Shown piece after piece: positions 29,401 through 55,905 of a DNA stretch of 64,000 bases (positions are counted from its first letter, which is position 1; the number at the start of each line of letters is the position of its first letter). The DNA lies in contig NZ_SMCO01000015.1 in NCBI RefSeq assembly GCF_004346685.1, positions 1 through 64,000 of the forward strand. Reading direction: 5' to 3'. The notes under the pieces were generated by a model. That model was not told the origin of the DNA. It saw only the letters and a program-made list of their open reading frames with translations, and ran no database searches. The stretch is from Sulfurirhabdus autotrophica (GTDB taxonomy: Bacteria; Pseudomonadota; Gammaproteobacteria; Burkholderiales; SMCO01). Both the position numbers and the translations under genes were made by a program.

Positions 29401-29426
29401 GGGGTTGTGCTGTATTGCACAACCCC
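29401..29426 (+). terminator. Intergenic stem-loop, possible attenuator or processing site
   Basis: GGGGTTGTGC-TGTATT-GCACAACCCC is a perfect ten-pair stem between two CTERM genes. No U-tract follows, so it may reduce rather than stop read-through, or protect the upstream mRNA and set unequal expression of the two genes. Confidence 0.55.
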
Positions 29427-29451
29427 AATATCCAATAAGTTTGAGGATAAA

Positions 29452-40000: not shown

Positions 40001-40121
40001 AAATAATTATTAAGTAAATATTATCTGGTATTAAAGTGCTAGGTTAATGTAGATATATGGAACATTAATGCTAACAATAATTGTTAAACGGTAGTTGAAA
40101 ATTAACTGGGGATTGAGGAAG

Positions 40122-40967
40122 ATGGAGAATATTAAATTCTTAAGTAAGCGTAGATTGGCTTTGGTGTCTATGTTGGCAGCATATGTAGGACTAAGTGCAA
40201 ATGCTCAAGCATCAGCCTATGCTGTTTCCACTAATACAATTTCTAATTTTGGAATGACATTTTCTCCAACATCCAGTTTTTCAGCCTTTACGTTTTCATC
40301 TGATGCTGCCACTTTAGGTAGCACAGGTAATGGCAATGCTGCAACAATGAATGCGCCTGCTGTTTGTATTGGTTGTAGTTATTCGGACTCCTATTTTTCA
40401 CATGGTATGAGTGCAACCGAATATTCTTATGGTGATGCACGAATTACTAACGCTAACGTATTGTTAGGTTCTGGTGGAGCATCTACGATTGGTGAATCAT
40501 CAATAAACAATGGTACTGGCTCGGGTTATGGAAATAACACGATGGTAGGCTTCTTTTCAATAAGTGCACCAACCAGTATTGGTATTAACTTTGATGCTAC
40601 ACCTTTCTTGTTAACTCAACTTGCAGCCGGGGGATTGGCCTCTACTGCCAATATCAGTACGACTGTTACAATTAGAGATAGTAACAATGTTACTGTTTTT
40701 TCTTGGGCACCAAATGGTAAGTTGGATGGTTCCGAAACAGCTGATACCTACGATCTAAATTGGGGGATCGGTCAGGGAGGCAGTTTTACTGGATCGGCGG
40801 GACATTTCTCTAATTCTGTTACGTTGAATAATAGTGGTTTTTATACTTTGAATATTGCAATGAATAACTCCGTATTTGTTAGTGCAGTACCTGTGCCAGC
40901 AGCATTATGGTTGATGGGCTCTGGATTGGTTGGGTTGGTGGGGTTCGCGCGTCGCAGGGCTATCTAG
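40122..40967 (+). CDS. VPLPA/PEP-CTERM-type surface protein
   Basis: A 281-residue secreted protein with signal peptide (RRLALVSMLAAYVGLSANAQ) and a tail AVPVPAALWLMGSGLVGLVG plus RRR. The passenger is rich in Ser, Thr and Asn and aligns with the following gene product: SISAPTSIGINFDATPFLL, VFSWAPNGKLDGSETADTYD, GFYTLNIAMNNSVFVSA. The function of the passenger is unknown. ATG at 40122 is chosen because the longer frame would need a TTG at 40095. It is controlled by the paired-site sigma-54 promoter. Confidence 0.86.
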   Translation: MENIKFLSKRRLALVSMLAAYVGLSANAQASAYAVSTNTISNFGMTFSPTSSFSAFTFSSDAATLGSTGNGNAATMNAPAVCIGCSYSDSYFSHGMSATEYSYGDARITNANVLLGSGGASTIGESSINNGTGSGYGNNTMVGFFSISAPTSIGINFDATPFLLTQLAAGGLASTANISTTVTIRDSNNVTVFSWAPNGKLDGSETADTYDLNWGIGQGGSFTGSAGHFSNSVTLNNSGFYTLNIAMNNSVFVSAVPVPAALWLMGSGLVGLVGFARRRAI

Positions 40968-41114: not shown

Positions 41115-41867
41115 ATGTTAATTGAACAAAAAAAAACAATGTCGATTGGTAGGGGTGCATTATTAGCCTTTGCAATTATGGGTGTTTGTAGTCAGGCGGA
41201 AGCTGGTGCAATTGCTTCATCCAATACTACACTTTCCAATTTTGCAATAGGTTTCTCTAGTCCGAATTCTATCTCTTTTAATGGGTTTTCTGGTGGAAAT
41301 GCTTCTATTACGGCGCCACCAGGTCCATTTGGAGGTGCAGTTTCTAGTGCACAAGTGTCGGGTAATGGAGCAAGTACCGGAACTAATACTTGGGTTGGGA
41401 CTTTTTTTGTTAATACCCCAACCTCTGTTTCGTTTAGCTTTTCAGCGGATTCAAATCTAGTAGCGAGCCTGACTCCGGGAGGTGTGGTTTCTGCTGCCAA
41501 CCTTTTTATGACGATTAGTATCAACGATCTTTTGGCTAACACTTCTGCATTTTCATGGGCGCCTAATGGTTTAGTGGGTGGGATTGTGGGTGGGGTCGAA
41601 ACGTCAGATGCTTTTGATCTTAATTATGGAATAACTCAGTTTGGTTCTTTAGGAACTACTTCTTTCCAATCCGGAAATGGATTGTTTGCTGCAAATAGTT
41701 CATTGTTGAACCCTGGGTTTTACTTGATGAATATTTCAATGTCTAATTCGGCATTCGTATCTTCGGGAGGGTTGCCGGTTGCTTCAGTGCCAGAGCCTTC
41801 GGTTTTATGGTTGGTCGGTGTTGGTTTCCTCGGTTTTCTAATTGCTCGCCGTAGGTGCTGGTATTAA
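41115..41867 (+). CDS. PEP-CTERM surface protein, paralogue of 40122
   Basis: A 250-residue secreted protein. Its passenger aligns with the preceding gene product (TPTSVSFSFSADSNLVASL, FSWAPNGLVGG, NPGFYLMNISMSNSAFVS). Its tail is the classical SVPEPSVLWLVGVGFLGFLI plus RRR, with Glu in the PEP motif, unlike the VPVPA tail of its neighbour. The start codon has no good ribosome-binding site; ATG at 41139 is an alternative. It lies 147 bases after the neighbour's stop without its own visible sigma-54 promoter, so it may be read through from 39984. Confidence 0.84.
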   Translation: MLIEQKKTMSIGRGALLAFAIMGVCSQAEAGAIASSNTTLSNFAIGFSSPNSISFNGFSGGNASITAPPGPFGGAVSSAQVSGNGASTGTNTWVGTFFVNTPTSVSFSFSADSNLVASLTPGGVVSAANLFMTISINDLLANTSAFSWAPNGLVGGIVGGVETSDAFDLNYGITQFGSLGTTSFQSGNGLFAANSSLLNPGFYLMNISMSNSAFVSSGGLPVASVPEPSVLWLVGVGFLGFLIARRRCWY

Positions 41868-41901
41868 GTGAATGCAAGTCAGTTACACTTATTGATAATT
41901 A

Positions 41902-41928
41902 GCCAGCATAAATTGCTGGCTTTTTTAT
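41902..41928 (+). terminator. Rho-independent terminator
   Basis: A GCCAGCA-TAAAT-TGCTGGC stem followed by TTTTTTA separates the CTERM pair from the type II secretion operon. Confidence 0.92.
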
Positions 41929-42121: not shown

Positions 42122-42961
42122 ATGTCAGGTATGCAGGATTTAAATATATTGTTTCGAAATTATTTTCAAGCGCGTGGGGTTTTATTGTTATCAGGCGGGT
42201 TAGTCGTTTTGTTGTGCTGGTTTTTGGCGCAGTGGACGTGGCTAGTTATAACTCCAAAAACTCATGGGGTTTCGTTTGAAAAATTGATTTTTTCTGCTCA
42301 GGACTCTGTGAACGTGATCATCTCAAGCCAACTATATGGAGGAGTGGGTTATTCACATGCTGACGGGACTTTAACACTATCTAATTATAAATTACATGGT
42401 GTATATTCGGCAAATGATTCGCAGCTAGCCTTTGCTATCATAGCGGTGGATGGTAAACCTGACCAACCCTTTCTGGTTGGGGATGAAATTTCGCAATCAT
42501 CGTTTCTTAATGCGGTTTATCCCGATTATGTGGAGATTCGTAGGCAGGGTAAGTTGGAACGTTTGGATTTGGATATAAAATTTTTAAGCCAGAGCGTGGA
42601 TGCTGCTGATGCAACTGAATTTAATTTAAATGTGCGTTCTGAAGGTGCTGGCAACTTTTCATTTTCACGTAAAGAATTAACGAAGGCTTTGCAAAACCCA
42701 AAACAATTGAAAGTATTAGGCAATTTGGCCAAGCCTCCGCATGGATCAGGTATAGCTGTAAATACTGCGCCAAAAGGTAGCTTAGCTCAGAAATTAGGGT
42801 TGCAGCAAGGGGACTTGATTTTAGCGGTGAACGGTCAAGTTGCCTCTAATATGGGAATAATAAATCAGCTTTATCAGCAATTGAATGAGATCGGTCAGGT
42901 GAAATTACAGTGTCTGCGTAATGGTCAGACGCTTTATATGAATTATACGGTTCAACAATAA
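42122..42961 (+). CDS. gspC: Type II secretion protein GspC
   Basis: GspC is the inner-membrane clamp that contacts the secretin GspD. The 279-residue product has one membrane helix (about residues 20-42), the homology region (residues about 75-160, LYGGVGYSHADGTLTLSNYK onward) and a C-terminal PDZ-like domain (GSGIAVNTAPKGSLAQKLGL, then GDLILAVNGQ). It is first in an operon in the usual order. The ATG at 42122 lacks a strong ribosome-binding site, and the ATG three codons later is possible. Confidence 0.9.
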   Translation: MSGMQDLNILFRNYFQARGVLLLSGGLVVLLCWFLAQWTWLVITPKTHGVSFEKLIFSAQDSVNVIISSQLYGGVGYSHADGTLTLSNYKLHGVYSANDSQLAFAIIAVDGKPDQPFLVGDEISQSSFLNAVYPDYVEIRRQGKLERLDLDIKFLSQSVDAADATEFNLNVRSEGAGNFSFSRKELTKALQNPKQLKVLGNLAKPPHGSGIAVNTAPKGSLAQKLGLQQGDLILAVNGQVASNMGIINQLYQQLNEIGQVKLQCLRNGQTLYMNYTVQQ

Positions 42962-42981
42962 TTCGAAGGGCAGGGAGGAGT

Positions 42982-45030
42982 ATGAGGTTTACATCTAGTA
43001 GTATTTGGTCTGTTGTTGGATTGATTTTAAGCAGTTTATTGGTATTTCCATCGTTTGCTGAAGATGAGCAGGTTACGCTGAATTTTGTTAACGCAGATAT
43101 AGATTCGGTTGTGAAAGCAGTTGGTGTGATCACAGGAAAGAATTTTGTTATTGATCCACGCGTCAAAGGAACAATCAATATTGTTTCCTCTAAACCTGTA
43201 CCACGCAATCTGACATATCAGATTTTGTTATCAGCCCTACGTTTGCAAGGATTCGCAGCGGTAGAAGGCCAGGGCGTTGTTAAGATTCTTCCTGAGGCTG
43301 ACGCGAAACAAAACTTTAGTGTGACAACTGGAAAAACATTAACGACCAGTGGTGATAAGATCGTCACACAAGTCTATCCACTTCAATATGAGTCAGCGGC
43401 ACAATTAGTCCCCGTGCTTCGTCCATTGATTGGCCCCAATAATTCTATTTCTGCTTATCCCAACACAAATACCTTGGTGATTACAGATTACGCTGACAAC
43501 ATTAAACGCATCAATAAGATAATCGATTCAATTGACCAGCCAAGTGGCAGTGAATTGACCATTATCAAATTGCAATATGCATCTGCTTTGGATATGGCAC
43601 AGCAGCTCAGTCGCTTGATAAGTGAGGGTCCTGGGGTGCCAGCGGCACCTGGTGCACAAGCTGGTGCGGGGCAGCAATTTGTTGTTTCGGCTGATGTACG
43701 TAGCAATAGTTTGCTTATTCGCTCCAGTAATCCTGCACAGTTAACTCGTTTGCGCAGTTTGGTGACTCAAATGGATGTGCCGACAAGTGAGTCAGGAAAT
43801 ATGCATGTAGTGTATTTGCGTAATGCTGAAGCAGGGAAGTTGGCGGAAACGCTACGTGCCGTTCTATCCGGTGAGGTAAAGAGTGCTCAGGTTGCAGGTG
43901 CGGTTGCAGGGCAACCGGGGTTGCCTCAGACCTCTCTTGGGACTGGGATTATTCAGGCGGATACGGCTACTAACTCGCTCATTATTACAGCGCCAGATAA
44001 TGTTTATAATTCGCTGCGTTCTGTTATTGATAAGCTGGATGCCAGGCGAGCGCAGGTTTTTGTTGAAGCATTAATCGCTGAAATAACGATGGATAAAGCG
44101 GCTGAATTTGGTATTCAGTGGCAAGCCCCGCTCGGAAGTGGTGGCAATAATAGTGCAGTAGTAGCCGGGGTGAACTTTGGATCGGGTGGTTCTAACATTG
44201 CCAGTTTGTCTACCGGAACTGTGTTGCCATCTGCCGGTTTGAATTTGGGTTTACTGCAAAGGTTGACGATTGGTGGTAAGGAAATTGTTGGGTTAACCGC
44301 TTTGGCGCGTGCCCTTGAATCCGATGTCAATGCGAATATCCTCTCCACCCCAAATCTGTTGACGATGGATAATGAAGAAGCAAAAATCGTTATTGGTAAG
44401 AATGTGCCGTTTATTACGGGTAGTTATGCCCAAGCGGCATCATCGACTGGTGGAGCGGTTACAGTTAACCCTTTCCAGACAATTGAACGAAAAGATGTGG
44501 GATTAACGCTAAAGATAAAACCGCAAGTAGCTGAGGGCGGGACGGTAAAATTGCAGATTTTGCAGGAGGCTTCTAGTATTCAGGATACGACCAACCAGGC
44601 TGGTATTATCACTAATAAGCGCTCTATTGAATCAACGGTGTTGGTGAATGATGGTCAAACGATTGTATTGGGTGGTTTGATTCAGGATGATGTTCAGGAT
44701 GGGGTGGATAAGGTGCCTGGTTTAGGTGATATTCCGGTTTTTGGTAGTTTGTTTAAGTACGAAAAACGTAAACATGTGAAAACCAATTTGATGGTTTTTA
44801 TCAGACCAATAATTATACGAAATGCCATTGCATCTGACTCATTGACTGGTGATCGGTATGATTATATCCGTAATGTTCAAGGGCAGTCAAAATTGAAATC
44901 GCATTTGTTCTTGCCGGATATTGCTAATCCTCAGCTACCTGAACGCAAGGTAAACCAAGTTGCTGTCGAAGGTGAACAAACTGGGGTGATCAAGGGTGCA
45001 GATGTGCCAAAAATTGAGGTAATTCATTAG
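42982..45030 (+). CDS. gspD: Type II secretion secretin GspD
   Basis: GspD forms the outer-membrane gate of the secretion system. The 682-residue protein has a signal peptide cut near SFA, the N0 domain (VTLNFVNADIDSVVKAVGVI), N1-N3 domains with a Gly/Ala-rich loop (GVPAAPGAQAGAGQQF) and the C-terminal secretin domain (ILSTPNLLTMDNEEAKIVIG; STVLVNDGQTIVLGGLIQDD). GGGAGGAGT before the ATG is a very strong ribosome-binding site. The length and all domains are normal. Confidence 0.96.
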   Translation: MRFTSSSIWSVVGLILSSLLVFPSFAEDEQVTLNFVNADIDSVVKAVGVITGKNFVIDPRVKGTINIVSSKPVPRNLTYQILLSALRLQGFAAVEGQGVVKILPEADAKQNFSVTTGKTLTTSGDKIVTQVYPLQYESAAQLVPVLRPLIGPNNSISAYPNTNTLVITDYADNIKRINKIIDSIDQPSGSELTIIKLQYASALDMAQQLSRLISEGPGVPAAPGAQAGAGQQFVVSADVRSNSLLIRSSNPAQLTRLRSLVTQMDVPTSESGNMHVVYLRNAEAGKLAETLRAVLSGEVKSAQVAGAVAGQPGLPQTSLGTGIIQADTATNSLIITAPDNVYNSLRSVIDKLDARRAQVFVEALIAEITMDKAAEFGIQWQAPLGSGGNNSAVVAGVNFGSGGSNIASLSTGTVLPSAGLNLGLLQRLTIGGKEIVGLTALARALESDVNANILSTPNLLTMDNEEAKIVIGKNVPFITGSYAQAASSTGGAVTVNPFQTIERKDVGLTLKIKPQVAEGGTVKLQILQEASSIQDTTNQAGIITNKRSIESTVLVNDGQTIVLGGLIQDDVQDGVDKVPGLGDIPVFGSLFKYEKRKHVKTNLMVFIRPIIIRNAIASDSLTGDRYDYIRNVQGQSKLKSHLFLPDIANPQLPERKVNQVAVEGEQTGVIKGADVPKIEVIH

Positions 45031-45081
45031 GGGTACACTTGGCTCTAGTGACCTCAAGACTTATTCCATCATTTTATATCT

Positions 45082-46593
45082 ATGCTGAATCAAAATTTAT
45101 CCACTCCTGATCCCAAGGTAACTGGACTGCTTCCTTATCATATTGCCAAGAGTAAAGGTGTGATAGCAGTCCGCCAGATTGGCTATGAAATCGAAGTGTG
45201 GGTGAGGGATGGCTTGCAGGCTGAAACGCTGGCTGAGACCCGCAGAATTCTAGGAAAGCCGCTGCATCCTGTAGTGTTGGAGCCGGCAGTTTTTGAGCAA
45301 TGTCTTACGTTAGCCTATGCTCGCCCGGATGACCATGCTGCCCGTTTAATGGGGGATATGGAGCAGGATTTTGATCTTCAGCAACTTTCACAGGATTTGC
45401 CGGTAATCGGCGATTTGTTGGAAGCAGAAGATAATGCACCGATTATCCGACTGATTAATGCCTTGCTGACTCAGGCGTTGCGGGAAAATGCTTCAGATAT
45501 ACATATTGAGCCTTACGAAACCAGATCGGTTGTGCGCTTTCGGGTAGATGGTGTGTTGCGCGATGTGATAGAGCCTCAACGTTCTTTGCACGCTGCAGTA
45601 GTGTCGCGGGTAAAGGTGATGTCGCAACTGGATATTTCTGAAAAACGCCTGCCGCAGGATGGCCGCATTACGCTGAAAATTGCGGGTCGGCCCGTTGATG
45701 TGCGCGTTTCCACCCTGCCTACTGGACATGGTGAGCGTGTTGTATTGCGTTTGCTTGACAAGCAACATGGCAGACTCAATCTTGATGGCTTGGGAATGGG
45801 CGCATCAACGATGGATGGGCTTGATCGGCTCATTCATCAGCAGCATGGTATTGTGCTGGTCACCGGTCCTACAGGCTCAGGTAAAACAACCACGCTTTAC
45901 GCTGCGCTTTCACGTCTGGATGCTGCGACGCGTAACATCATGACAGTAGAAGATCCCATTGAATATGATCTTGATGGGGTAGGGCAGACACAGGTCAATG
46001 CGCGCATCGACATGACTTTTGCACGGGCATTGCGTGCGATTCTGCGCCAGGATCCGGATGTGATCATGATTGGTGAGATTCGAGATCTTGAAACGGCGCA
46101 GATAGCTGTACAGGCTAGCCTGACTGGGCACTTGGTATTGGCAACACTACACACTAACGATGCGGCAGGAGCGGTAACGCGTCTGATTGATATGGGGGTA
46201 GAGCCTTTCTTGCTTGCGTCCAGTCTGTTGGGGGTTTTGGCGCAACGTCTGGTTAGGCGAACTTGCCCTGAGTGCCGTAACGCATATACGCCCGATGCAA
46301 CTGAACTAAACATGCTGAACTTACCAAACCCACCAAGCACTTTGTTTACCGCGACCGGATGCCCGAGTTGCAATATGACTGGTTATAGAGGGCGGACTGG
46401 TATATACGAATTACTGAGTGTAGATGCTAATTTAAGGCGAATGATCCACGATGGAGAATCTGAGCAGTCCTTGCGTGATTACGCATTGAAGTCTGATTTA
46501 ATCAGCTTGCGTCAGGATGGGATGCGCTGGGTGGTAACTGGAGATACAACGCTCGAAGAGGTGTTGCGCGTGGCGAGAGATGTCCGGATTTAG
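45082..46593 (+). CDS. gspE: Type II secretion ATPase GspE
   Basis: GspE is the cytoplasmic hexameric ATPase that drives the pseudopilus. The 503-residue protein has the Walker A GPTGSGKTTTLYAAL near residue 262, the Asp box VEDPIEYDLDGVGQTQVN, Walker B IMIGEIRDLETAQIAV, the His box LATLHTNDA and the zinc-binding tetracysteine motif (CPEC near residue 395, CPSC near residue 427). All are intact. gspF overlaps its end by 14 bases. Confidence 0.96.
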   Translation: MLNQNLSTPDPKVTGLLPYHIAKSKGVIAVRQIGYEIEVWVRDGLQAETLAETRRILGKPLHPVVLEPAVFEQCLTLAYARPDDHAARLMGDMEQDFDLQQLSQDLPVIGDLLEAEDNAPIIRLINALLTQALRENASDIHIEPYETRSVVRFRVDGVLRDVIEPQRSLHAAVVSRVKVMSQLDISEKRLPQDGRITLKIAGRPVDVRVSTLPTGHGERVVLRLLDKQHGRLNLDGLGMGASTMDGLDRLIHQQHGIVLVTGPTGSGKTTTLYAALSRLDAATRNIMTVEDPIEYDLDGVGQTQVNARIDMTFARALRAILRQDPDVIMIGEIRDLETAQIAVQASLTGHLVLATLHTNDAAGAVTRLIDMGVEPFLLASSLLGVLAQRLVRRTCPECRNAYTPDATELNMLNLPNPPSTLFTATGCPSCNMTGYRGRTGIYELLSVDANLRRMIHDGESEQSLRDYALKSDLISLRQDGMRWVVTGDTTLEEVLRVARDVRI

Positions 46594-47794
46594 ATACGAA
46601 GCAGTTGATTCTGAAGGTAGATCCAGAACTGGGGTGCTCGAAGCGGATACCCCTCGGCAAGTTCGCTTGAATTTGCGTGAACAGGGTTTAATTGCAGTTA
46701 GCGTTGAAGCACTTTCTGAAAAAGCAGCATCTCAAGGGAGAAGGTGGCAGTTAAGGCGTGGGTTGCCACTTTCAGAACTGAGTTTGCTGACAAGGCAATT
46801 ATCAACTTTACTGAACGCCGGACTGACAATTGATCAAACATTGAATGCTTTGATTGAACAGACGGAATCGCAGTACCAACGGCAAGTTCTAGCCGGTGTG
46901 CGCAGCGAAATATTGGCTGGCCATACCTTGGCTCGGGCTATGTCCCAATACCCTACAGTATTTCCAGAACTTTATCAGACCCTTGTGCAAAGCGGGGAAC
47001 AATCAGGCCAGTTGAGCCGTGTATTGTTGCGTTTGGCAGATTACATGGAAGACCGGTATGCGCTTCGGCAAAAAGTAGTGCTGGCCTTTATTTATCCTGC
47101 TGTGGTGACATTTGTGGCAATTGCCGTTGTTGCAGGATTGCTTACCTATGTGGTTCCCCAAGTAGTCAATGTTTTTCTGAATACCAATCAGCCTTTACCC
47201 TGGTTAACTCGTGCTTTGATGGGTTTAAGTTCATTTTTGCGTAGTACCTGGTTTATCTGGATTGCAATTATAGTCATTGGAACTTGGGGAGGTCGGAAAG
47301 CTTTAAAACGCCCTGATATACGTTACCGTTTCCATTCCTGGTTGTTGAAACTGCCGCTAGTTGGCAGGTTGATCCGCGGCTTGAATACTGCGCGTCTTGC
47401 CAGCACATTGGCTATTCTGGTTGGCAGCGGTGTGCCATTGTTAACTGCATTGCAGGCTGGGGTGGGAGTGTTAAACAGTTATCCGATGCGAAGTGCGTTG
47501 GAAGAGGTAGTAAGCCGAGTAAGAGAAGGGGGGAGCTTAAGCCGTTCTTTAGCACGTACTAAAATGTTTCCACCGGTGATGATCCATCTTATTGCCAGTG
47601 GGGAGGCCAGTGGCAAACTGGATCAGATGTTAGAGCGTATTGCTACACAGCAGACGCAGGAGATGCAAAGTCGTGTGGCCACGCTTACTGGATTGATGGA
47701 ACCCCTGTTGATATTGTTGATGGGAGGGGTAGTGCTGGTAATTGTATTGGCAATTCTGCTGCCAATATTTGAAATGAATCAACTGGTACACTAA
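46580..47794 (+). CDS. gspF: Type II secretion inner-membrane platform GspF
   Basis: GspF is the polytopic platform that couples the ATPase to the pseudopilus. The 404-residue protein begins MSGFRYEAVDSEGRSRTGVL, typical for the family. It contains the two duplicated GspF domains (LTRQLSTLLNAGLTIDQTLN; ASTLAILVGSGVPLLTALQA) and three membrane helices. It overlaps gspE by 14 bases, and its stop overlaps the start of the protease gene by one base. Confidence 0.95.
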   Translation: MSGFRYEAVDSEGRSRTGVLEADTPRQVRLNLREQGLIAVSVEALSEKAASQGRRWQLRRGLPLSELSLLTRQLSTLLNAGLTIDQTLNALIEQTESQYQRQVLAGVRSEILAGHTLARAMSQYPTVFPELYQTLVQSGEQSGQLSRVLLRLADYMEDRYALRQKVVLAFIYPAVVTFVAIAVVAGLLTYVVPQVVNVFLNTNQPLPWLTRALMGLSSFLRSTWFIWIAIIVIGTWGGRKALKRPDIRYRFHSWLLKLPLVGRLIRGLNTARLASTLAILVGSGVPLLTALQAGVGVLNSYPMRSALEEVVSRVREGGSLSRSLARTKMFPPVMIHLIASGEASGKLDQMLERIATQQTQEMQSRVATLTGLMEPLLILLMGGVVLVIVLAILLPIFEMNQLVH

Positions 47795-48276
47795 TGTATA
47801 AAGCGGTGCTTGCAGATGCGGGGCTAACTGGGTATCGACCATTTTTCCGAGATATTCAATTTTTATTGGCGTTATTGGTTGGTGTTTTTGTATGGTTCGA
47901 GATGTGGTTTCTTTCATCGAACTTGCTGCCTGTTTTTTTGGTTCAAAACAGTTTTATTTTCTTTCTTTCTGTAGTGTTATGGCAGCCATTTTTAGAGGAA
48001 TTGCTATTTAGAGGGGTAGTTCAGGGGCAATTCAGGTTACATAACTGGGGCAAGGAAAAGCGCTGGGGAATAACGCGAGCGAATTTGTTTGCCTCGCTAT
48101 TATTTGTACTCGTCCATTTTATTTATCATTCGCCACTTTGGGCTATTGCAGTTTTTTTCCCTTCGCTTGTGTTTGGGTATTTTCGGGATAAATATGGCAG
48201 CATTTATGCCGCGTTGGCGTTGCATGTATTTTATAACGCGGGCTATTTTTTGCTAGGGTTATTGAAAATGGTTTGA
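47794..48276 (+). CDS. mrtJ: CPBP-family glutamic intramembrane protease, MrtJ-like
   Basis: A 160-residue membrane protein with about four helices and all CPBP active-site motifs: Glu68-Glu69 and Arg73 in EELLFRG, His108 in LFVLVHF, and His144 and Asn148 in LHVFYN. Such short CPBP proteases include MrtJ, the enzyme assigned to JDVT-CTERM tails, and a protein with such a tail is at 25832. The gene is not a standard type II secretion gene, yet it starts one base inside the end of gspF and is followed by gspG, so it is made together with the secretion machine. Its assignment as MrtJ rests on size, motifs and context. It could instead process another secreted class. Confidence 0.75.
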   Translation: MYKAVLADAGLTGYRPFFRDIQFLLALLVGVFVWFEMWFLSSNLLPVFLVQNSFIFFLSVVLWQPFLEELLFRGVVQGQFRLHNWGKEKRWGITRANLFASLLFVLVHFIYHSPLWAIAVFFPSLVFGYFRDKYGSIYAALALHVFYNAGYFLLGLLKMV

Positions 48277-48327
48277 GGTGGAAATAATTTGGGTTCGGAA
48301 TCGAAAACTAATGTCTGGAGTTAAAAA

Positions 48328-48777
48328 ATGTTGAGTAAGTATCACGCGAAGAAGAAAGCGCTGCAGAGTGGTTTTACCCTTATTGAGATTATGATTGTAG
48401 TGGTTATTCTGGGAATTCTCGCGGCATTGATTGTGCCTAAGGTCATGGGGCGGCCTGATGAAGCGCGGATTGTTGCTGCCAAACAGGATGTTGCTGCATT
48501 GATGCAGGCACTTAAACTTTATCGGTTGGATAATATTTCATACCCAACGACAGATCAGGGCTTGCAGGCGTTAGTGGTTAAACCCGCGAGTGCGCCGGTC
48601 CCTCCAAACTGGAAATTAGGTGGATATTTGGATCGGCTTCCTAAAGATCCGTGGGGACATGACTATCAATACCTAAGTCCTGGCATCAGAGGGGAAATCG
48701 ACGTGTTCAGCTTGGGTGCGGATGGCGCGCCAGGCGGCGAGGGGAATGATGCTGATGTGGGTTCCTGGAGTCAGTAA
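48328..48777 (+). CDS. gspG: Type II secretion major pseudopilin GspG
   Basis: GspG is the main subunit of the pseudopilus. The 149-residue preprotein has a basic leader and a prepilin peptidase site SG/FTLIEIMIVVVILGIL with Glu5 of the mature form. The body has the family segments GRPDEARIVAAKQDVAALMQ and NISYPTTDQGLQALV, and the calcium-site end LGADGAPGGEGNDADVGSWS. GGAG precedes the ATG by eight bases. The prepilin peptidase itself is not in the window. Confidence 0.97.
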   Translation: MLSKYHAKKKALQSGFTLIEIMIVVVILGILAALIVPKVMGRPDEARIVAAKQDVAALMQALKLYRLDNISYPTTDQGLQALVVKPASAPVPPNWKLGGYLDRLPKDPWGHDYQYLSPGIRGEIDVFSLGADGAPGGEGNDADVGSWSQ

Positions 48778-49285
48778 TCGCGTATTTTCTGCTGGCATGC
48801 CTAACCTGAAATCAAAACGACAGGCTGGTTTTACGCTTGTAGAAATTTTGATTGTGCTTGTCATTATCGGGATTACGGTAGGTTTGATTAGCGTGAATTT
48901 CATGCCTGACGATAAACAAAAATTGATGGATGAGGTCAGAAAGCTCTCTTTGCTGATAGAGCAGGCACATGATGAAGCGATAGTGAGTGGAAGAGAAATT
49001 GCGTTGTCGTTAGACGGTGACAAGTATCAGTTTTGGCGCAAAGATGAATATGGCAAATGGGTGCAATTTACGAATGATGACTTGTTCCGTGAACGATTGT
49101 TGGGATCCGAAATAAAGCTTTCGGAACTGAGTATTAATTCAGCCAAAGTTGTTGCGAATGAGCGTTTGATTTTTTCCCCAGCAGGAATGAGCGCGCCATT
49201 CAGCATCAATTTAGAATTAAAAGGGCATCATATGTGGATCACTTCTGACAGTCAGGGAAAGATAGCCTTGAAGAGCGATGAATAA
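48755..49285 (+). CDS. gspH: Type II secretion minor pseudopilin GspH
   Basis: A minor pseudopilin of the tip complex. The prepilin site is QAG/FTLVEILIVLVIIGITVG, and the mature body contains LIEQAHDEAIVSGREIALSL. Start choice is uncertain. ATG at 48755 lies ten bases after GAGGGG and overlaps gspG by 23 bases, giving a 25-residue leader. ATG at 48797 gives a shorter, typical leader but has no ribosome-binding site. The frame is open back to 48716. Confidence 0.9.
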   Translation: MWVPGVSNRVFSAGMPNLKSKRQAGFTLVEILIVLVIIGITVGLISVNFMPDDKQKLMDEVRKLSLLIEQAHDEAIVSGREIALSLDGDKYQFWRKDEYGKWVQFTNDDLFRERLLGSEIKLSELSINSAKVVANERLIFSPAGMSAPFSINLELKGHHMWITSDSQGKIALKSDE

Positions 49286-49646
49286 ACAGGCAGGGTTTAC
49301 CTTACTGGAAGTGTTGATCGCGTTAGCAATTCTGGCCATTGCAATGGCGGCGGTTGCGCGCGCATCCATGCAAATGACTGACAGTTCCAATGAACTTAAG
49401 CGTAGATTGTTGGCAAGTTGGGTTGTTGATAATCGCTTGGCTGAGCATATGGCCCGGTCTGAATGGCCTCCAGTTGGATTAAGTAATGGTATGGAAGACC
49501 AGGCAGGATTGTCACTACGCTGGGAAGAAAATGTTTCAAATTCACCTAATATTGCATTTAGACGCGTCGAAATAAAGGTTTACGCAGGTGTTGATAAACA
49601 AGCCTTGGCTCAGTTGGTGGGTTATCTAGGTAGAGGTAAAGAGTAA
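49278..49646 (+). CDS. gspI: Type II secretion minor pseudopilin GspI
   Basis: A 122-residue minor pseudopilin that seeds the tip of the pseudopilus with GspJ and GspK. The leader is very short: MNKQAG/FTLLEVLIALAIL. The body has the usual NRLAEHMARSEWPPVG segment. It overlaps gspH by eight bases, which implies translational coupling. Confidence 0.95.
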   Translation: MNKQAGFTLLEVLIALAILAIAMAAVARASMQMTDSSNELKRRLLASWVVDNRLAEHMARSEWPPVGLSNGMEDQAGLSLRWEENVSNSPNIAFRRVEIKVYAGVDKQALAQLVGYLGRGKE

Positions 49647-50312
49647 ATGGTATTTTGGAGTTTAGCTGCGCAAAGCAAGGAAAAAGTTACTCATCAGAGC
49701 AATAAATGCGCCAATGTTTACACCATTTCTGGCTTTACGCTGCTCGAGTTGCTGGTTGCAATAGCCATATTTTCTGTTATGTCAGTGGTAGCATATAGGG
49801 GATTAAACGCGACGCTGGAGACACGTGCACATTTATTGGACGATAACCGAAAATGGCGTGAACTATCTTTATTTTTTGCTCAAATGAAAGATAGTCTGAC
49901 AAATGTAGTCAATCGTCCAGTTCGTAATAATAATAATGATCTAGTGCTGCCAGCATTTGCAGGAAAACCCGAAGTGATTGGTGAGGATGACGCTCAACTG
50001 GTATTTACCCGGATAGGTTTGCCTGGGCAACTAGGAAGCTTAGGGGGCTTGCAACGATATGGTTATCGTTTGCGTGAACATAATATTGAACAATTGGTCT
50101 GGCCGGTTTTGGATCAGGCTCCACGCACTCAACCTGCAGTTTTTCAGGTGTTGCCCCATGTAACCAGCTTTGTGATGCGCTATTTAGATAAGCAGGGGAA
50201 ATGGCAATCAAAGTGGCCAGTATTAGGGCAGAATGATGTTGCGCCGCAGGCAGTAGAGATTCGGGTTGGTTTGCAATCTGGTGAGCAAATAGTGCGGTTA
50301 TTTGCGCTATGA
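49647..50312 (+). CDS. gspJ: Type II secretion minor pseudopilin GspJ
   Basis: A 221-residue minor pseudopilin. The leader is long (about 29 residues, MVFWSLAAQSKEKVTHQSNK onward), ending ISG/FTLLELLVAIAIFSVMS. The body shows the family pattern AYRGLNATLETR and RYGYRLREHNIEQLVWP. The start codon directly abuts the gspI stop. gspK overlaps its end by four bases. Confidence 0.93.
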   Translation: MVFWSLAAQSKEKVTHQSNKCANVYTISGFTLLELLVAIAIFSVMSVVAYRGLNATLETRAHLLDDNRKWRELSLFFAQMKDSLTNVVNRPVRNNNNDLVLPAFAGKPEVIGEDDAQLVFTRIGLPGQLGSLGGLQRYGYRLREHNIEQLVWPVLDQAPRTQPAVFQVLPHVTSFVMRYLDKQGKWQSKWPVLGQNDVAPQAVEIRVGLQSGEQIVRLFAL

Positions 50313-51253
50313 TTTTGTTCAAACCTTCAGCCAGTAAAGTCGGGGAGAGTGGCATCGCAATCATTACGGTGATACTGATTGTCGCATTGGCTTCCAGCGT
50401 AGCGGCATTTATGGCGTGGCAACAACAAATCTGGATCAGACAGGTGGAAAATTTAAGGGACCAAGCCCAGGCACAGGCAATTTCCCGTGCAGCAATTGAT
50501 TGGGCACGCGCAATTTTAGCTGATGATGCACGTAATAATAATGTAGATTATCTGGGGGAAAAGTGGGCAACGGTACTGGCGCCAATACCGGTTGAAAATG
50601 GCCAGGTAACCGGAAGCATCACAGACCAACAGGGATTATTTAACCTGAATAATGTGGTCCGTAATGGTGCAGTGAGTCCACCAGATTTGGCTATTTTCAA
50701 ACGCCTACTAAATCAACTCAAACTTTCGACAGATTTGGCAAATGCAGTAGTGGACTGGATAGATTTAAATTCTGATGTAACCTCGCCCGGTGGAGCAGAA
50801 GACATGGATTACCTGGCACTGGATATACCTTATCGTTCAGCAAACCAGAATCTGACCGATCTTAATGATTTGTTACGGATAAAAGGATTTGACCGGGGGA
50901 TTGTTGATCGTTTAAGTCCCTTTGTAACGGTATTACCCGAGCCAACACAAGTGAATGTGAATACAGCACCAGCAGAAGTGCTGCTTGCGCTGTTTGAGGA
51001 TTTATCTTCAGAAGATGTAAAAGCCCTTGTAAACAAAAGGAAGTCTGAGCATTATGTAAACCAGGCTGATTTTAGGGCGCAACTGCCGGCTACAAAAGTT
51101 GGGCAAATCAATGATAATATTTTCAGTGTAAGCAGCCGGTATTTTATGGTAACAAGTTTGGCAAATTTTGGTCGAGCTCAGGCTGGTTATAAGGCATTGT
51201 TAATGCGACAAGGTGACGTTTGGCCCGCTGTAGTATGGAAAAAAACTAACTAA
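50309..51253 (+). CDS. gspK: Type II secretion minor pseudopilin GspK
   Basis: GspK caps the pseudopilus. The 314-residue protein has a prepilin-like start (GESGIAIITVILIVALASSV) without the usual Phe and Glu5, as is normal for GspK, then GQVTGSITDQQGLFNLNNV and the helix-hairpin-helix-like region with VNVNTAPAEVLLALFEDLSS. It overlaps gspJ by four bases. Confidence 0.95.
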   Translation: MILFKPSASKVGESGIAIITVILIVALASSVAAFMAWQQQIWIRQVENLRDQAQAQAISRAAIDWARAILADDARNNNVDYLGEKWATVLAPIPVENGQVTGSITDQQGLFNLNNVVRNGAVSPPDLAIFKRLLNQLKLSTDLANAVVDWIDLNSDVTSPGGAEDMDYLALDIPYRSANQNLTDLNDLLRIKGFDRGIVDRLSPFVTVLPEPTQVNVNTAPAEVLLALFEDLSSEDVKALVNKRKSEHYVNQADFRAQLPATKVGQINDNIFSVSSRYFMVTSLANFGRAQAGYKALLMRQGDVWPAVVWKKTN

Positions 51254-51257
51254 AATT

Positions 51258-52574
51258 ATGGGGCAACATTTGTCACTTTTACAGATATATATACCAGAGC
51301 ATTTTGCGGAAAATACTGTCGCCACCATTGTTCAGTCTACTGGTGGGTCAGAATCTGAAGTTGGTGTTGAAAGTAGCGATAAATCACTGTGTCAATGGGT
51401 TCTGCGAGATACACAGGGCAGAATCGTTCATCGAGGAGATAGTCCCCTTTCGGCCATACCAAAAGCCGATAATGTTCAGGTGGTTGTACCTGCAAGTATG
51501 GTGTTATTAGCGCAAGTGCGTGTGCCAACGCGAAATCGACGGAAAATGCTGCAATTGCTCCCTTATGCAGTTGAAGAAAAACTGATGTACGATCCTGACG
51601 CCATTCATGTTGCAGCGGGCCCCCAATTGCTTAATGGCGAAACGGTTGTGGCATTGATTGATAAAGGCTGGATGAAGCGAGTATTGAGTGAGTTACAGAG
51701 CAATGGACTGTTACCTCGCCAAATGTTGCCTGAAACGCTTCTCCCCTGTGTGAGCCCTGGTAAATGGACAATGGTGTGGAATGGTCGTGAAGGGTTTGTA
51801 CGTAAAGATAGCGTCTCTGGCTCATCTATAGATGGTGGCAATCTGGAAACTCCCCCACTTGGTTTAATGCTTGCGGTTAAAGAAGCTGCAGCCAAAGGAA
51901 ACGCCCCGCAGAAAATCAGGTTGCAGCTTACAAAGGGAGCTGAAATGCCCAGCTTGGAAAGTTGGGCGACTAAACTTGATGTGGCAGTTTCTTTGGAGCC
52001 AATTTGGGAATGGTATTCAGCTACAGATAAGCTGGACAAAGGGATCAATCTGCTGCAAGGAGAATTTGCTCCGGCAGGCTTCAATTCTGATTGGCTGACT
52101 AAATATAAACTGCCTTTAATTCTTGCAGGTCTTATCTTGTTATTGCAGTTTGGCGGTGGGATAACTGAGTGGTCTATTCTTACCTATCAAAAGCATCAAT
52201 TGGAAAATCAGATCCAACAATTTTTTCATCAAGCGTTCCCTGAAGCTAAGGTTATTGTGGATGCGCCATTACAAATGCAACGAAATCTTGCACAGTTAAG
52301 GCATGCCAAAGGGTTGTCTGACCCGACAGACTTTTTGCCAATGCTGGCGAAAGTGGTGCCATTGCTTTCGCAGTCAGGTATGGTGATAGCTCAGGATTTG
52401 CAGTATGATAACGGCATCCTAAAAATAAGCTTGCAGTTAAAAGCCTCACAAACCGCCGAACAAATACGTAGCAGGTTTCAAAATGCGGGTGTGAAAATGG
52501 AGGTAGAAAAGATTGAAGTCCTCAAATCAGGTGGAATAATTGCGCATCTGATTGTTAAAGGGGGCGTTTCATGA
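51258..52574 (+). CDS. gspL: Type II secretion inner-membrane protein GspL
   Basis: GspL links the ATPase GspE to the membrane platform. The 438-residue protein has an actin-like cytoplasmic domain (VQVVVPASMVLLAQVRVPTR; LLPYAVEEKLMYDPDAIHVA), one membrane helix near residue 290 (LPLILAGLILLLQFGGGI) and a periplasmic ferredoxin-like domain. gspM overlaps its end by four bases. Confidence 0.94.
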   Translation: MGQHLSLLQIYIPEHFAENTVATIVQSTGGSESEVGVESSDKSLCQWVLRDTQGRIVHRGDSPLSAIPKADNVQVVVPASMVLLAQVRVPTRNRRKMLQLLPYAVEEKLMYDPDAIHVAAGPQLLNGETVVALIDKGWMKRVLSELQSNGLLPRQMLPETLLPCVSPGKWTMVWNGREGFVRKDSVSGSSIDGGNLETPPLGLMLAVKEAAAKGNAPQKIRLQLTKGAEMPSLESWATKLDVAVSLEPIWEWYSATDKLDKGINLLQGEFAPAGFNSDWLTKYKLPLILAGLILLLQFGGGITEWSILTYQKHQLENQIQQFFHQAFPEAKVIVDAPLQMQRNLAQLRHAKGLSDPTDFLPMLAKVVPLLSQSGMVIAQDLQYDNGILKISLQLKASQTAEQIRSRFQNAGVKMEVEKIEVLKSGGIIAHLIVKGGVS

Positions 52575-53071
52575 GCGACAAAATACAGATGTACTGGAAA
52601 TCACTGCCTTTGCGTGAGCGCTGGCTGCTTGGTGTTGGATTTTTCGCGCTATTTACTGTCATTTTAGTGTTTTACATTTGGCAACCGATGAATCAGGCGC
52701 GTTATAAGTTACGAGCAAATTTGCCACAACTCAAAGCAAATGCGCAGCAGATGCAATTAAATGCCTTAGAGGTCGCCAGGATAAAATCACTTCCGGTTGT
52801 AGCACCATTGCCTATTGGCAATGTTAAGGAAGTGTTAGAACATTCAGCGGAGAAGTTTAATTTAATGAACGAACGCACGTTCATCAATGTTGATAGCGCT
52901 GGACGCATTAGCATTGAGATGGAGAATGTTTCTTTTGATGGATGGATAAAGTGGTTGGGTAATTTGCAGGAACAAAACCGAATTCTGGTTGAAAGTTGCC
53001 TTATTGAAGGGGTAGCTCAGCCAGGCTTGGTGAAGGTGAAAGCCAAATTGCTGGTGAAGGTTGCCGGATGA
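52571..53071 (+). CDS. gspM: Type II secretion protein GspM
   Basis: GspM is the small partner of GspL. The 166-residue protein has an N-terminal LRERWLLGVGFFALFTVILV helix near residues 14-36 and a periplasmic ferredoxin-like domain. It overlaps gspL and gspN by four bases each. Confidence 0.92.
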   Translation: MSDKIQMYWKSLPLRERWLLGVGFFALFTVILVFYIWQPMNQARYKLRANLPQLKANAQQMQLNALEVARIKSLPVVAPLPIGNVKEVLEHSAEKFNLMNERTFINVDSAGRISIEMENVSFDGWIKWLGNLQEQNRILVESCLIEGVAQPGLVKVKAKLLVKVAG

Positions 53072-53862
53072 CTTTTGGTAAAACGGTTGAACGCAGTAAG
53101 CACCTAAAATATTTATTTGCAGGCTTAGTCTTGTATGTTTTCTTTTTAATTGTAACTGCGCCAGCCAGTCTGATGGAATGGTTGTTACCAAGACTGTCAA
53201 ACGGTAGGTTAGAAATCACACAGTCTGAAGGCGGCTTTTGGCATGGCAAAGCACAGCAGGTTGTGCTCAAAAAAAATGATAGTAGCCAGAGGCAGCTTGG
53301 TAGTTTGGAATGGGAAATACTTTTGTTGCCAATGTTTAAAATGGAATTGGCAACAAAAATAGCACTTGAAAATGGCCAAAATAAATCGCAGGGTGTTGTT
53401 GCAAAAAGCTTTGGAACGTTCCATATTAGTAATATGAATAGCATTTTACCTATTGAAGTACTGGCAGATTTTATGCCGGCTTGGCAAATGTGGAAACCTG
53501 AAGGTGAACTGATATTTAAAGCAAAAGACTTTTCTATTGGAAAAAAATTGGCGGGTGAAGCAATGGTTGAGTGGAGAAATGCTTCTGTAAGCTTGAGTCG
53601 TATAAACCCTTTAGGTAGTTATCATATGGATCTTCAGGGAGATAATAGTGTTTCCAAGATTCGATTATCTACCCTGTCCGGCTTGCTGCGTATAGCGGGA
53701 GAAGGTGAATGGTCAAGTGATAGGGGTATTGAGTTTCGAGGAACAGCACAGGCAGAACCAGCAAGAAAAGCAGAATTAGAGGATTTGCTAAAATTAATGG
53801 GTAAGGAGCAGAGGAATGGTGCTTACCAGATTGAAATCTCACAAATGCAAAAACCAAAATAG
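53068..53862 (+). CDS. gspN: Type II secretion protein GspN
   Basis: The last gene of the secretion operon. The 264-residue product has an N-terminal membrane helix (YLFAGLVLYVFFLIVTAPAS) and the GspN pattern RLEITQSEGGFWHGKAQQVV with a long beta-rich periplasmic part. GspN is found only in some type II systems, and its role is not fixed. It overlaps gspM by four bases. A 136-base AT-rich spacer separates it from the polysaccharide export gene. Confidence 0.9.
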   Translation: MTFGKTVERSKHLKYLFAGLVLYVFFLIVTAPASLMEWLLPRLSNGRLEITQSEGGFWHGKAQQVVLKKNDSSQRQLGSLEWEILLLPMFKMELATKIALENGQNKSQGVVAKSFGTFHISNMNSILPIEVLADFMPAWQMWKPEGELIFKAKDFSIGKKLAGEAMVEWRNASVSLSRINPLGSYHMDLQGDNSVSKIRLSTLSGLLRIAGEGEWSSDRGIEFRGTAQAEPARKAELEDLLKLMGKEQRNGAYQIEISQMQKPK

Positions 53863-53998: not shown

Positions 53999-54616
53999 AT
54001 GATGAAATTTAATAATATTTTGACTATTCCAGTTTTTATTTTAGGCTTGCTGATAAGCAGTGTTTCTCAGGCAGAAAAAGTTATTGAGCAGGTGCCATCT
54101 GATACGCCAAAAGCTGAAGCAGGGATTGTCGATCAGGGATACCAGATTGGGCCTGAAGATGTGCTATCGATTTCTGTCTGGAAAGAAGAAGGTCTTAAAG
54201 CTGAAGTATTAGTTAGGCCAGACGGGGGGTTGTCTTTTCCTCTGGTAGGAGAAGTTCAAGCGCAAGGGAAGACCACAGAACAAATTCAGAAAGAAATTAC
54301 TGCGCGGCTTGAAAAATTCATTCCTGACCCTGTAGTATCGGTTTCGGTACTGAAAGTGGTTGGTAACAAAATTTATGTAATTGGAAAAGTAAATAAGCCG
54401 GGTGAGTATCCGGCTGGTCGCTATGTTGATGTTTTACAAGCGCTAAGTATGGCGGGAGGGTTAACGCCATTTGCTGCAGAGAACGATATAAAGGTGTTAC
54501 GTAAAGAAAACGGTAAGGATTTGGTTTTACCCTTTCGATATTCACAAGTCCAAAAAGGACAAGAACTAGATCAGAATATTATGCTTCAAAGTGGGGATGT
54601 GGTTGTGGTTCCATGA
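53999..54616 (+). CDS. Polysaccharide export protein of the exosortase-associated type
   Basis: A 205-residue periplasmic/outer-membrane export protein (Poly_export plus SLBB domains). The signal peptide is cut after SQA. The export domain includes GYQIGPEDVLSISVWKEEGL and RPDGGLSFPLVGEVQAQGKT. The SLBB part is KIYVIGKVNKPGEYPAGRYV, then VLQALSMAGGLTPFA. No lipobox is seen, unlike Wza. It is the short form found in EpsE-like and XrtA-linked exopolysaccharide loci. ATG at 54002 is an equally likely start. Confidence 0.9.
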   Translation: MMKFNNILTIPVFILGLLISSVSQAEKVIEQVPSDTPKAEAGIVDQGYQIGPEDVLSISVWKEEGLKAEVLVRPDGGLSFPLVGEVQAQGKTTEQIQKEITARLEKFIPDPVVSVSVLKVVGNKIYVIGKVNKPGEYPAGRYVDVLQALSMAGGLTPFAAENDIKVLRKENGKDLVLPFRYSQVQKGQELDQNIMLQSGDVVVVP

Positions 54617-54666
54617 AATTTCAAGTGTTGCTTACATCTAGAAAAGAATAATTAGAGGATCTTATT

Positions 54667-55905
54667 TTGAATCTTTTTTTTGTTACAAAAAAGAGTTTTG
54701 TGTCGTGTAGCACTTCATTGTTGATGCTGCTTCCTTTGGTTTCGTTGGCAGCAGAATGGTCGGCAGAGCCTTCTGTAAGCCTAAAGGAAGAGTATAACGA
54801 TAATATTCACCTTACAATGGTAAAGCACCCTTCAGTTACTGCTACTACACTTTCGCCATCTGTTAAATTTAATTATGCTACTGAGATTTCTAATGTCAGT
54901 GGAGGCGCGACATTAAGTGCCAATAAATACTCAGGCGAGCAGGGATTGGACAGGGTTGATCAATTTTATACCTTGTCTTCAAACTATAAAACTGAGCGGA
55001 GTATTTTTGGTTTGAATGCTAACTACACGAAAAGCTTCGCTTCTCAATATGACAACATCGCAACTGGCTCACTTATTCGGCGTACCGATTCAAATATTGC
55101 GCCTTCATGGATTTGGTCGTTATCTGAAAAAAATGCTTTACGCCTTGATTATCAATTATCGCAAGTTAAGTATGATAGTGGCACGGATTATAAGGTAAAT
55201 ACAGCAACATTCAGCCTGATACAACAATATACTGAAAGAGATAAACTTATATTTCAAACTTATAATCAGAAGACTGACATAAATAGTGGCGTGGTGAAAT
55301 CGGATTCTTATGGATTGAGTGGTGGTGTTACACACGACTTTTCAGAAACTTTAAGCGGTTCATTAACTATTGGTGGGTACACAGTAAAAACAACGACAAT
55401 CACCGGAACTCAATTATGTCCTTCATATAGTTTGGGATTTAATGGTAGCGGATTCTTTATTTATTGTGGTCAACCGTTAGTCACTGTTTTTTCAACATCT
55501 GAATCAAGAAATCGTGGTATGTCTTTTGATATGTCACTGAACAAACAATTTGAAACTGCAAATTTAACAGCGCAATACAGCAGAAAATTACAACCTGGTG
55601 ATAATACCTTGGTAGAGACTGATCAGGCGACTTTGATTTTGACCGATAAATGGTCACCTTTGGTATCAGGATCAATTAGCTCTTTCATTTTGCGTAGTAG
55701 AAATAAAGGCGGTGTTCTAGCAAATAATAGGAGATATTATACAGTATCTCCTAGCCTGAGTTGGCGTTTGTCAGAATCGTGGGTTTTAGACACAGGGTAC
55801 CGATATGAAAGAAATGAATATGAACAAACAAATTTTAGCGCTTCAGCAAATTCGGTATTTGCGCAAATAAAGTATGATTGGCCAAAATTTGCTATATCCC
55901 GTTAA
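54667..55905 (+). CDS. Outer-membrane beta-barrel protein of the exopolysaccharide locus
   Basis: A 412-residue protein with a signal peptide cut near SLA and a mature part with many alternating strands (WSAEPSVSLKEEYNDNIHLT; SWRLSESWVLDTGYRYERNE), resembling the TIGR03016-type outer-membrane proteins of PEP-CTERM exopolysaccharide loci. The start is TTG at 54667, with GAGGA seven bases upstream; no ATG fits the signal peptide. It probably forms the outer-membrane part of the export path together with the export protein just upstream. Confidence 0.82.
   Translation: MNLFFVTKKSFVSCSTSLLMLLPLVSLAAEWSAEPSVSLKEEYNDNIHLTMVKHPSVTATTLSPSVKFNYATEISNVSGGATLSANKYSGEQGLDRVDQFYTLSSNYKTERSIFGLNANYTKSFASQYDNIATGSLIRRTDSNIAPSWIWSLSEKNALRLDYQLSQVKYDSGTDYKVNTATFSLIQQYTERDKLIFQTYNQKTDINSGVVKSDSYGLSGGVTHDFSETLSGSLTIGGYTVKTTTITGTQLCPSYSLGFNGSGFFIYCGQPLVTVFSTSESRNRGMSFDMSLNKQFETANLTAQYSRKLQPGDNTLVETDQATLILTDKWSPLVSGSISSFILRSRNKGGVLANNRRYYTVSPSLSWRLSESWVLDTGYRYERNEYEQTNFSASANSVFAQIKYDWPKFAISR

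Follow-up and report, generated by a model that had tools for sequence, protein, structure and literature searches.

An intramembrane protease gene of the MrtJ family within type II secretion operons of Sulfurirhabdus autotrophica and other bacteria suggests a link between JDVT-CTERM tail cleavage and type II secretion

The DNA analysed here, referred to as the window, is a stretch of 64,000 nucleotides from Sulfurirhabdus autotrophica (contig NZ_SMCO01000015.1, positions 1 to 64,000). It carries a complete gsp operon for a type II secretion system (T2SS) on the forward strand (42122-53862), running from gspC to gspN, with the protease gene mrtJ between gspF and gspG, and the gene of a putative substrate further upstream. 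The features are as follows.

25832-27370, forward strand: candidate substrate with Big_5 and choice-of-anchor U domains, a JDVT-CTERM tail and, judged by eye, a signal-peptide-like N terminus
30730-31485, forward strand: paralogue of the first ~220 residues of the candidate substrate, with a VPLPA/PEP-CTERM tail (TIGR03370, 30.3 bits, cut-off 25.35)
41901-41921, forward strand: terminator-like hairpin 5′ of gspC (stem of 8 pairs, T run)
42122-42961, forward strand: gspC-like, first gene of the operon (NF041515, 66.9 bits, cut-off 150; TIGR01713, 56.6 bits, cut-off 101.6; both below cut-off)
42982-45030, forward strand: gspD, secretin (TIGR02517, 619.9 bits, cut-off 351.35)
45082-46593, forward strand: gspE, ATPase (TIGR02533, 721.3 bits, cut-off 630.25)
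46580-47794, forward strand: gspF (TIGR02120, 511.6 bits, cut-off 424), its stop codon overlapping the mrtJ start by one base
47794-48276, forward strand: mrtJ, JDVT-CTERM system glutamic-type intramembrane protease, 160 amino acids (NF033192, 111.7 bits, cut-off 75)
48328-48777, forward strand: gspG, major pseudopilin (TIGR01710, 191.2 bits, cut-off 88.85)
48794-51253, forward strand: gspH, gspI, gspJ and gspK, minor pseudopilins (each above its NCBIfam cut-off)
51258-53862, forward strand: gspL, gspM and gspN (TIGR01709, 250 bits, cut-off 65; Pfam T2SSM 100.9 and T2SSN 110.3 bits, above cut-off)

The products of gspD through gspL scored above NCBIfam cut-offs and those of gspM and gspN above Pfam cut-offs; the gspC-like product stayed below its own, and its identity rests on position and on blastp matches to the gspC of relatives. 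Terminator-like sites were not more frequent in the region than expected by chance (10 observed vs 12.1 in shuffled sequence). The gspF-gspG interval was free of such sites on the forward strand, and between mrtJ and gspG we found neither a forward-strand terminator-like site nor a stable RNA fold. Behind gspN, at 53999-55905, lie two genes whose products best match TIGR03027 and TIGR03016 (each below its cut-off), namely a polysaccharide-export protein and an outer membrane protein associated with PEP-CTERM; because of these two genes, the T2SS of the window may border an exosortase-type exopolysaccharide locus. Two more GspG-family genes exist elsewhere in this genome (C2:72126 and C2:182754; 180 bits, above cut-off), each adjoining a GspF-like gene that scored below cut-off, in the order G-F.

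A preliminary description of this DNA had proposed a 160-residue MrtJ-like protease between gspF and gspG, starting one base inside gspF and possessing every catalytic residue, and each of these points was borne out. The open reading frame is present, and its ATG (47794-47796) begins on the last base of the gspF stop codon TAA (47792-47794). Its product was the sole match to NF033192 in the genome (E 0.001), and was matched also by the Pfam Rce1-like family (64.2 bits, cut-off 22.4). The catalytic signature of the CPBP family consists of EExxxR, a His and HxxxN; correspondingly placed Glu68, Glu69, Arg73, His108, His144 and Asn148 were invariant in an alignment of 16 MrtJ proteins. A different CPBP family that fits the protein better, which would have argued against the assignment, was looked for and not found: all eight further NCBIfam models listed for the protein fell below their own cut-offs, among them those of the myxosortases MrtX (35.9 bits, cut-off 180), MrtC (51.3, cut-off 195) and MrtP (58.8, cut-off 250). 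The AlphaFold2 model was largely helical (mean pLDDT 92.2); a Foldseek search against the PDB returned nothing at E 0.001, the best match being SpdC (TM 0.51, E 1.5). At the identical site, three genomes of another family (G014, G242 and G272) encode MrtJ with 59–61% identity, and there the one-base overlap with gspF recurs as TGATG. The dN/dS ratio of mrtJ was 0.10–0.12 against G272 and G242, with dS near saturation, was not computable against G014, and amounted to 0.22–0.43 among the close relatives themselves. Thus, same-site copies in another family and low dN/dS identify mrtJ as a real gene and not a chance reading frame. Cleavage of JDVT tails is the activity predicted for its product.

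The substrate candidate at 25832, also named in the preliminary description, was upheld by its score against the JDVT-CTERM model (NF033191, 39.9 bits, cut-off 27; tail at 27260-27361). Its tail combines the invariant Cys motif, a hydrophobic stretch and an Arg-rich end; in an alignment of 10 JDVT tails, G-G-C, D and R-R were invariant. The genome encodes two JDVT proteins above cut-off, this one (C15:27260) and a protein of the choice-of-anchor O family (279.1 bits) on contig C10 (C10:79533), so one protease would serve at least two tails. Some 15 kb separate the gene at 25832 from gspC, and mrtJ begins roughly 20 kb downstream of it. The separation from gspC, together with the location of the second JDVT gene on another contig, was counted against the idea that tail cleavage is coupled to type II secretion. 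Upstream of gspC, G242 has a homologue of 25832 with the same tail, and the block 5′ of gspC, consisting of the JDVT gene and PEP-CTERM-type genes, is common to G242 and the window. In the window, the PEP-CTERM-type proteins between the JDVT gene and gspC are encoded at 28689-29360, 29407-30660, 40095-40967 and 41115-41867; those at 28689, 40095 and 41115 exceeded a PEP-CTERM-related cut-off, and 29407 came just under that for VPLPA (24.0 vs 25.35 bits). At the corresponding site of G242, three proteins with VPVPA tails (by eye) follow the JDVT gene. The products of 30730 and 25832 are identical in 155 of 231 aligned columns (67%); with paralogous exported domains and unlike tails (JDVT-CTERM vs VPLPA/PEP-CTERM) at one locus, they form a natural tail-swap pair.

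The family of the window genome has no other genome in our sample of the order, which comprised 399 genomes. As at most 18 candidates per genome were scored for JDVT tails, the JDVT counts for the order are lower bounds; for G014, G194, G242 and G272 every candidate was rescored, with unchanged outcome. MrtJ was above cut-off in 15 of the 399 genomes, JDVT in at least 15 and both in at least 13 (Fisher p about 1e-20, relatedness ignored). MrtJ occurred without JDVT above cut-off in G014 and in G194 (JDVT 22.6 bits only), and JDVT without MrtJ above cut-off in G040 and G388. Five of the 15 MrtJ-positive genomes, belonging to three families (f1, f15 and f17), have mrtJ in the gspF-gspG gap: the window genome (G000), G014, G242, G272 and G016. 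For the other 10, no gsp gene was seen beside mrtJ within the 7 to 20 kb covered, in some cases limited by the contig end, and this, too, was counted against coupling.

JDVT genes themselves were found in or next to gsp operons. The gap of G016 holds a JDVT-tailed subtilase together with mrtJ; its tail reached 28 bits in two scorings, above the cut-off of 27, and 24.1 bits, below it, in another. In G026, the gap is occupied by the genes of a subtilase with a JDVT tail (30.1 bits) and of a protein of 115 residues, another JDVT gene follows gspN, and mrtJ resides on another contig; the same operon has an nSTAND1 NTPase gene between gspH and gspI (L165:11066-13561). G032 and G077, which share a genus code, carry a JDVT gene divergent from gspC at a distance of about 900 bases, an interval that may contain a 188-residue open reading frame of no known family. 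A further subtilase near gsp genes, that of G031, lacks a JDVT tail and was left out of the count. Altogether, 5 of the 32 JDVT genes counted above cut-off in the order (a lower-bound count) lie in or adjoin a gsp operon. A crude null model that allows 14 junctions among 3,500 genes, with the gene number assumed and the test picked post hoc, puts the probability of this at about 2e-7, or 3e-4 if the cases are taken as three lineages.

For comparison, we inspected 20 further GspF regions, 15 from genomes without MrtJ above cut-off (G003, G004, G021, G022, G023, G028, G029, G031, G033, G036, G053, G055, G057, G151 and G388) and five from MrtJ-positive genomes with mrtJ elsewhere (G101, G119, G158, G263 and G322). 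In ten of these, gspF was followed by gspG (G004, G021, G022, G031, G033, G053, G119, G151, G158 and G388), in G033 with a reversed gspC-like gene in between; blastp and the tail pattern detected neither mrtJ nor a JDVT gene in the ten gaps. The remaining ten had a different gene order or lacked gspG in the region examined. GspF was above cut-off in 13 of the 15 MrtJ-positive genomes vs 13 of 30 comparison genomes from the order that have neither marker (p 0.006), the latter being a non-random pick and the two MrtJ-positive misses being 86–87% complete. The operons of the window, G016, G026, G032 and G242 possess gspN, but since control operons frequently have it as well (blastp), gspN does not single out the mrtJ- or JDVT-linked operons.

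Beyond the order, a scan of named genomes yielded 80 loci, of which 35, entered by tblastn and in part checked against the MrtJ cut-off, were taken further. A JDVT protein above cut-off was present in 30 of these 35 genomes, and mrtJ was seen inside gsp genes only in L086 and L101, several flanks being short; L086 is the genome of G016, with identical gsp genes. In Rhodoferax L110, a JDVT gene is divergent from gspG (178.7 bits), about 8 kb from mrtJ. Three apparent associations were discarded: in Rhodoferax L109, blastp had wrongly labelled a type IV pilin encoded near mrtJ as "GspG", and in G490 and G485 the mrtJ neighbours matched as "GspE" are ATPases of the pilus type (PilT family in the one case tested, 501 bits).

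The locus L101 belongs to Zetaproteobacterium NORP31 (G399) and shows the order gspC-D-E-F, a gene for a 227-residue protein, mrtJ, a gene for a YidD-like protein, gspG and gspH. Its GspD, GspE and GspG exceeded NCBIfam cut-offs, GspF reached 391.8 bits against 424, and gspC passed Pfam T2SSC. By blastp, G450 has the same gene set, with gspC beyond the contig end. The membrane-like 227-residue protein and the YidD-like protein (PF01809) flanking mrtJ in these two gaps (L101:5624-7103 and L219:4351-5809) are an observation of their own; the former matched neither Pfam nor NCBIfam. Across this Zetaproteobacteria class, MrtJ was above cut-off in 21 of 78 genomes, being gap-located in two (G399 and G450), and JDVT was above cut-off in only 13 of the 21 and in none of the other eight, which was likewise counted against coupling. 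In one of the 21, G442, a JDVT tail, mrtJ and gspC (Pfam T2SSC 62.4 bits; NCBIfam 145.1 vs 150) are consecutive on the same strand, the JDVT gene being truncated by the contig end; triosephosphate isomerase is encoded next to gspC, and no further gsp gene was present within the 17 kb examined.

The expectation that a protease gene in the gap is always accompanied by JDVT tails did not hold. Three of the seven genomes with mrtJ in the gap, G014 (52 of 52 candidates scored), G399 (18 of 18) and G450 (13 of 13), gave no JDVT protein above cut-off, and at the place where the window and G242 carry the block with the JDVT gene upstream of gspC, this block was not found in G014. Because of these three genomes, and because most MrtJ genes were not seen adjoining gsp genes, a strict coupling rule fails. 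Since gap-located mrtJ persists there with all candidates scored, and G014 is without the upstream block, in these genomes mrtJ either outlasts its known substrate, or has another target, or the tail has diverged below the cut-off. The same three genomes speak for an explanation in which MrtJ at this site, in place of JDVT tails or in addition to them, processes or removes a part of the T2SS or some other membrane protein. We consider this very improbable, as the sequence falls within the MrtJ equivalog model, whose members closely track JDVT tails in the order, and as G242 and G272, which share the genus code of G014, retain a JDVT protein.

The further expectation that this protease never occurs without type II secretion came close to holding. 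Of 50 genomes carrying an MrtJ locus (35 from other lineages and 15 of the order, with G016 counted twice), 47 had GspG above cut-off, the misses being G072, G194 and G401. In the family of one Sulfurovum genome (G420), MrtJ was above cut-off in 23 of 175 genomes, and GspG in 22 of these 23 vs 121 of the 152 others (one-sided p 0.048); the misses keep the expectation from holding strictly, and the genomes of this family without MrtJ are mostly GspG-positive too. G401, where MrtJ and four JDVT proteins were found and GspG was not above cut-off, was counted against coupling. It would fit a situation in which MrtJ acts on JDVT proteins that stay in the inner membrane or periplasm, the T2SS serving other cargo, and the literature searched yielded no localisation of a JDVT protein. 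Such retention appears rather improbable given the near-constant presence of GspG in these two sets and the resemblance of the gap-encoded JDVT subtilases to secreted proteases.

In the MrtJ tree, from which L049 (the second MrtJ of G263, without a blastp hit) and L086 (the same genome as L041) were omitted, gap-located copies occupy three places, requiring 3 changes (3–3 across bootstrap trees). An AU test did not reject a single clade of all gap-located MrtJ (p 0.115), nor the pairwise groupings of the window group with G016 (0.259), the window group with Zetaproteobacteria (0.216) or G016 with Zetaproteobacteria (0.227). As the tree gives three places yet no joint clade is rejected, a repeated origin of the arrangement across lineages is favoured without being shown; differing gap companions and a gspF identity of 36% between the Zetaproteobacterium and the window likewise speak for it. 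The unrejected single clade would suit a passenger gene that entered once or a few times and uses the gsp promoter, with JDVT proteins independent of this T2SS. In line with this, most MrtJ genes were not seen with gsp neighbours, and in the three Sulfurovum-family genomes where a single contig carries both MrtJ and GspG, the two are >300 kb apart (in the remaining MrtJ-positive members, GspG is on a different contig or its position was not listed). We nevertheless judge mere co-location unlikely. A passenger protease does not account for JDVT genes that themselves sit in or beside gsp operons, within the order more often than the rough post hoc null predicts, and at differing junctions: in the gap in two families, divergent from gspC in one genus, beside gspG in L110 and with mrtJ and gspC in G442. 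In addition, T2SS dependence has been published for two sister tail systems.

Directly established are the gene identities, the gene order, the overlap, the conserved placement and the linkage of JDVT genes and mrtJ to gsp genes in several lineages. On the basis of gene order and of published sister systems, the best reading is that mrtJ is probably a co-translated member of the gsp operon and couples tail cleavage to delivery by the T2SS, as the preliminary description had suggested; the arrangement supports this without proving it, and the recurrence of mrtJ and JDVT genes in or beside gsp operons has to be weighed against the three genomes with mrtJ in the gap and no JDVT protein above cut-off. 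Coupling is supported because MrtJ and JDVT are both above cut-off, co-occur, and both recur in or beside gsp operons, because GspG accompanies MrtJ in nearly all of the 50 genomes, and also because MYXO-CTERM proteins need the T2SS for the surface step and MrtX, a relative of MrtJ, cleaves MYXO-CTERM, according to PMC11980579. In the proposed sequence of events, mrtJ would be translated together with its gsp neighbours; by analogy, the JDVT protein would be exported by Sec, be held in the membrane by its tail and probably be lipidated at the tail Cys, after which MrtJ would cleave the tail and the T2SS would carry the cleaved protein outward, so that the lipid anchor would end up outside. Placing mrtJ in the gsp operon would match the supply of the protease with that of the export machinery. 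More tentatively, some bacteria might possess a sorting-enabled T2SS in which MrtJ is a true accessory at the GspF/GspC platform, passing lipid-anchored, tail-cleaved cargo straight to the pseudopilus, the gap having been filled more than once by a module of protease, cargo or both; we regard this as possible and not as probable.

The route by which C-terminally tailed proteins leave the inner membrane and reach the surface is an unsettled question. The presence within gsp operons of a protease gene and, in G016 and G026, of the gene of a tailed protein provides a genetic handle on it, with a single operon, a single protease, a substrate that can be named and, as a built-in control, a close paralogue with a different tail. 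With this arrangement, it can be tested directly whether tail cutting and type II secretion are linked as proposed.

The MrtJ enzyme family itself is already known, and its neighbourhood has been described, in PMC11980579, as a pair in which the MrtJ gene is joined by a single JDVT gene. The window shares the protease family and the tail, both above curated cut-offs, and differs in that mrtJ lies inside a gsp operon, the substrate gene is distant, and two JDVT proteins accompany one MrtJ. The main text of PMC11980579 does not contain the words gsp or operon, and we found no earlier report of mrtJ in gsp operons; the original description of MrtJ lay outside the search, so that an earlier report is possible, and the gsp-operon context is apparently a new as well as a real and conserved arrangement. 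The nearest published counterpart is MrtX/MYXO-CTERM of Myxococcus xanthus, likewise with a glutamic intramembrane protease, an invariant-Cys tail and a surface step that needs the T2SS: according to PMC11980579, cleavage of the MYXO-CTERM tail by MrtX depends on the Cys, lipidation of the Cys being itself a hypothesis in that work. MrtJ of the window differs from MrtX, the match at 35.9 bits (cut-off 180) being limited to the C-terminal part of MrtX. Surface delivery through the T2SS is reported for MYXO-CTERM and GlyGly-CTERM proteins (PMC11980579; PMC6219818). The rhombosortase/GlyGly-CTERM system (VesB of Vibrio cholerae) is alike in joining a tail-cleaving intramembrane protease to T2SS export to the surface and differs in its serine rhomboid protease and its tail; a 2011 paper states that there was no evidence of rhombosortase marking any T2SS subclass (PMC3237569). 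Finally, in Acinetobacter baumannii, GspN is reported to be needed for surface lipoproteins (PMC12802150). There, as proposed here, a T2SS brings lipid-anchored proteins to the surface, and the window operon has gspN as well; the Acinetobacter lipoproteins differ, according to the same source, in having an N-terminal anchor and following the ordinary lipoprotein pathway.
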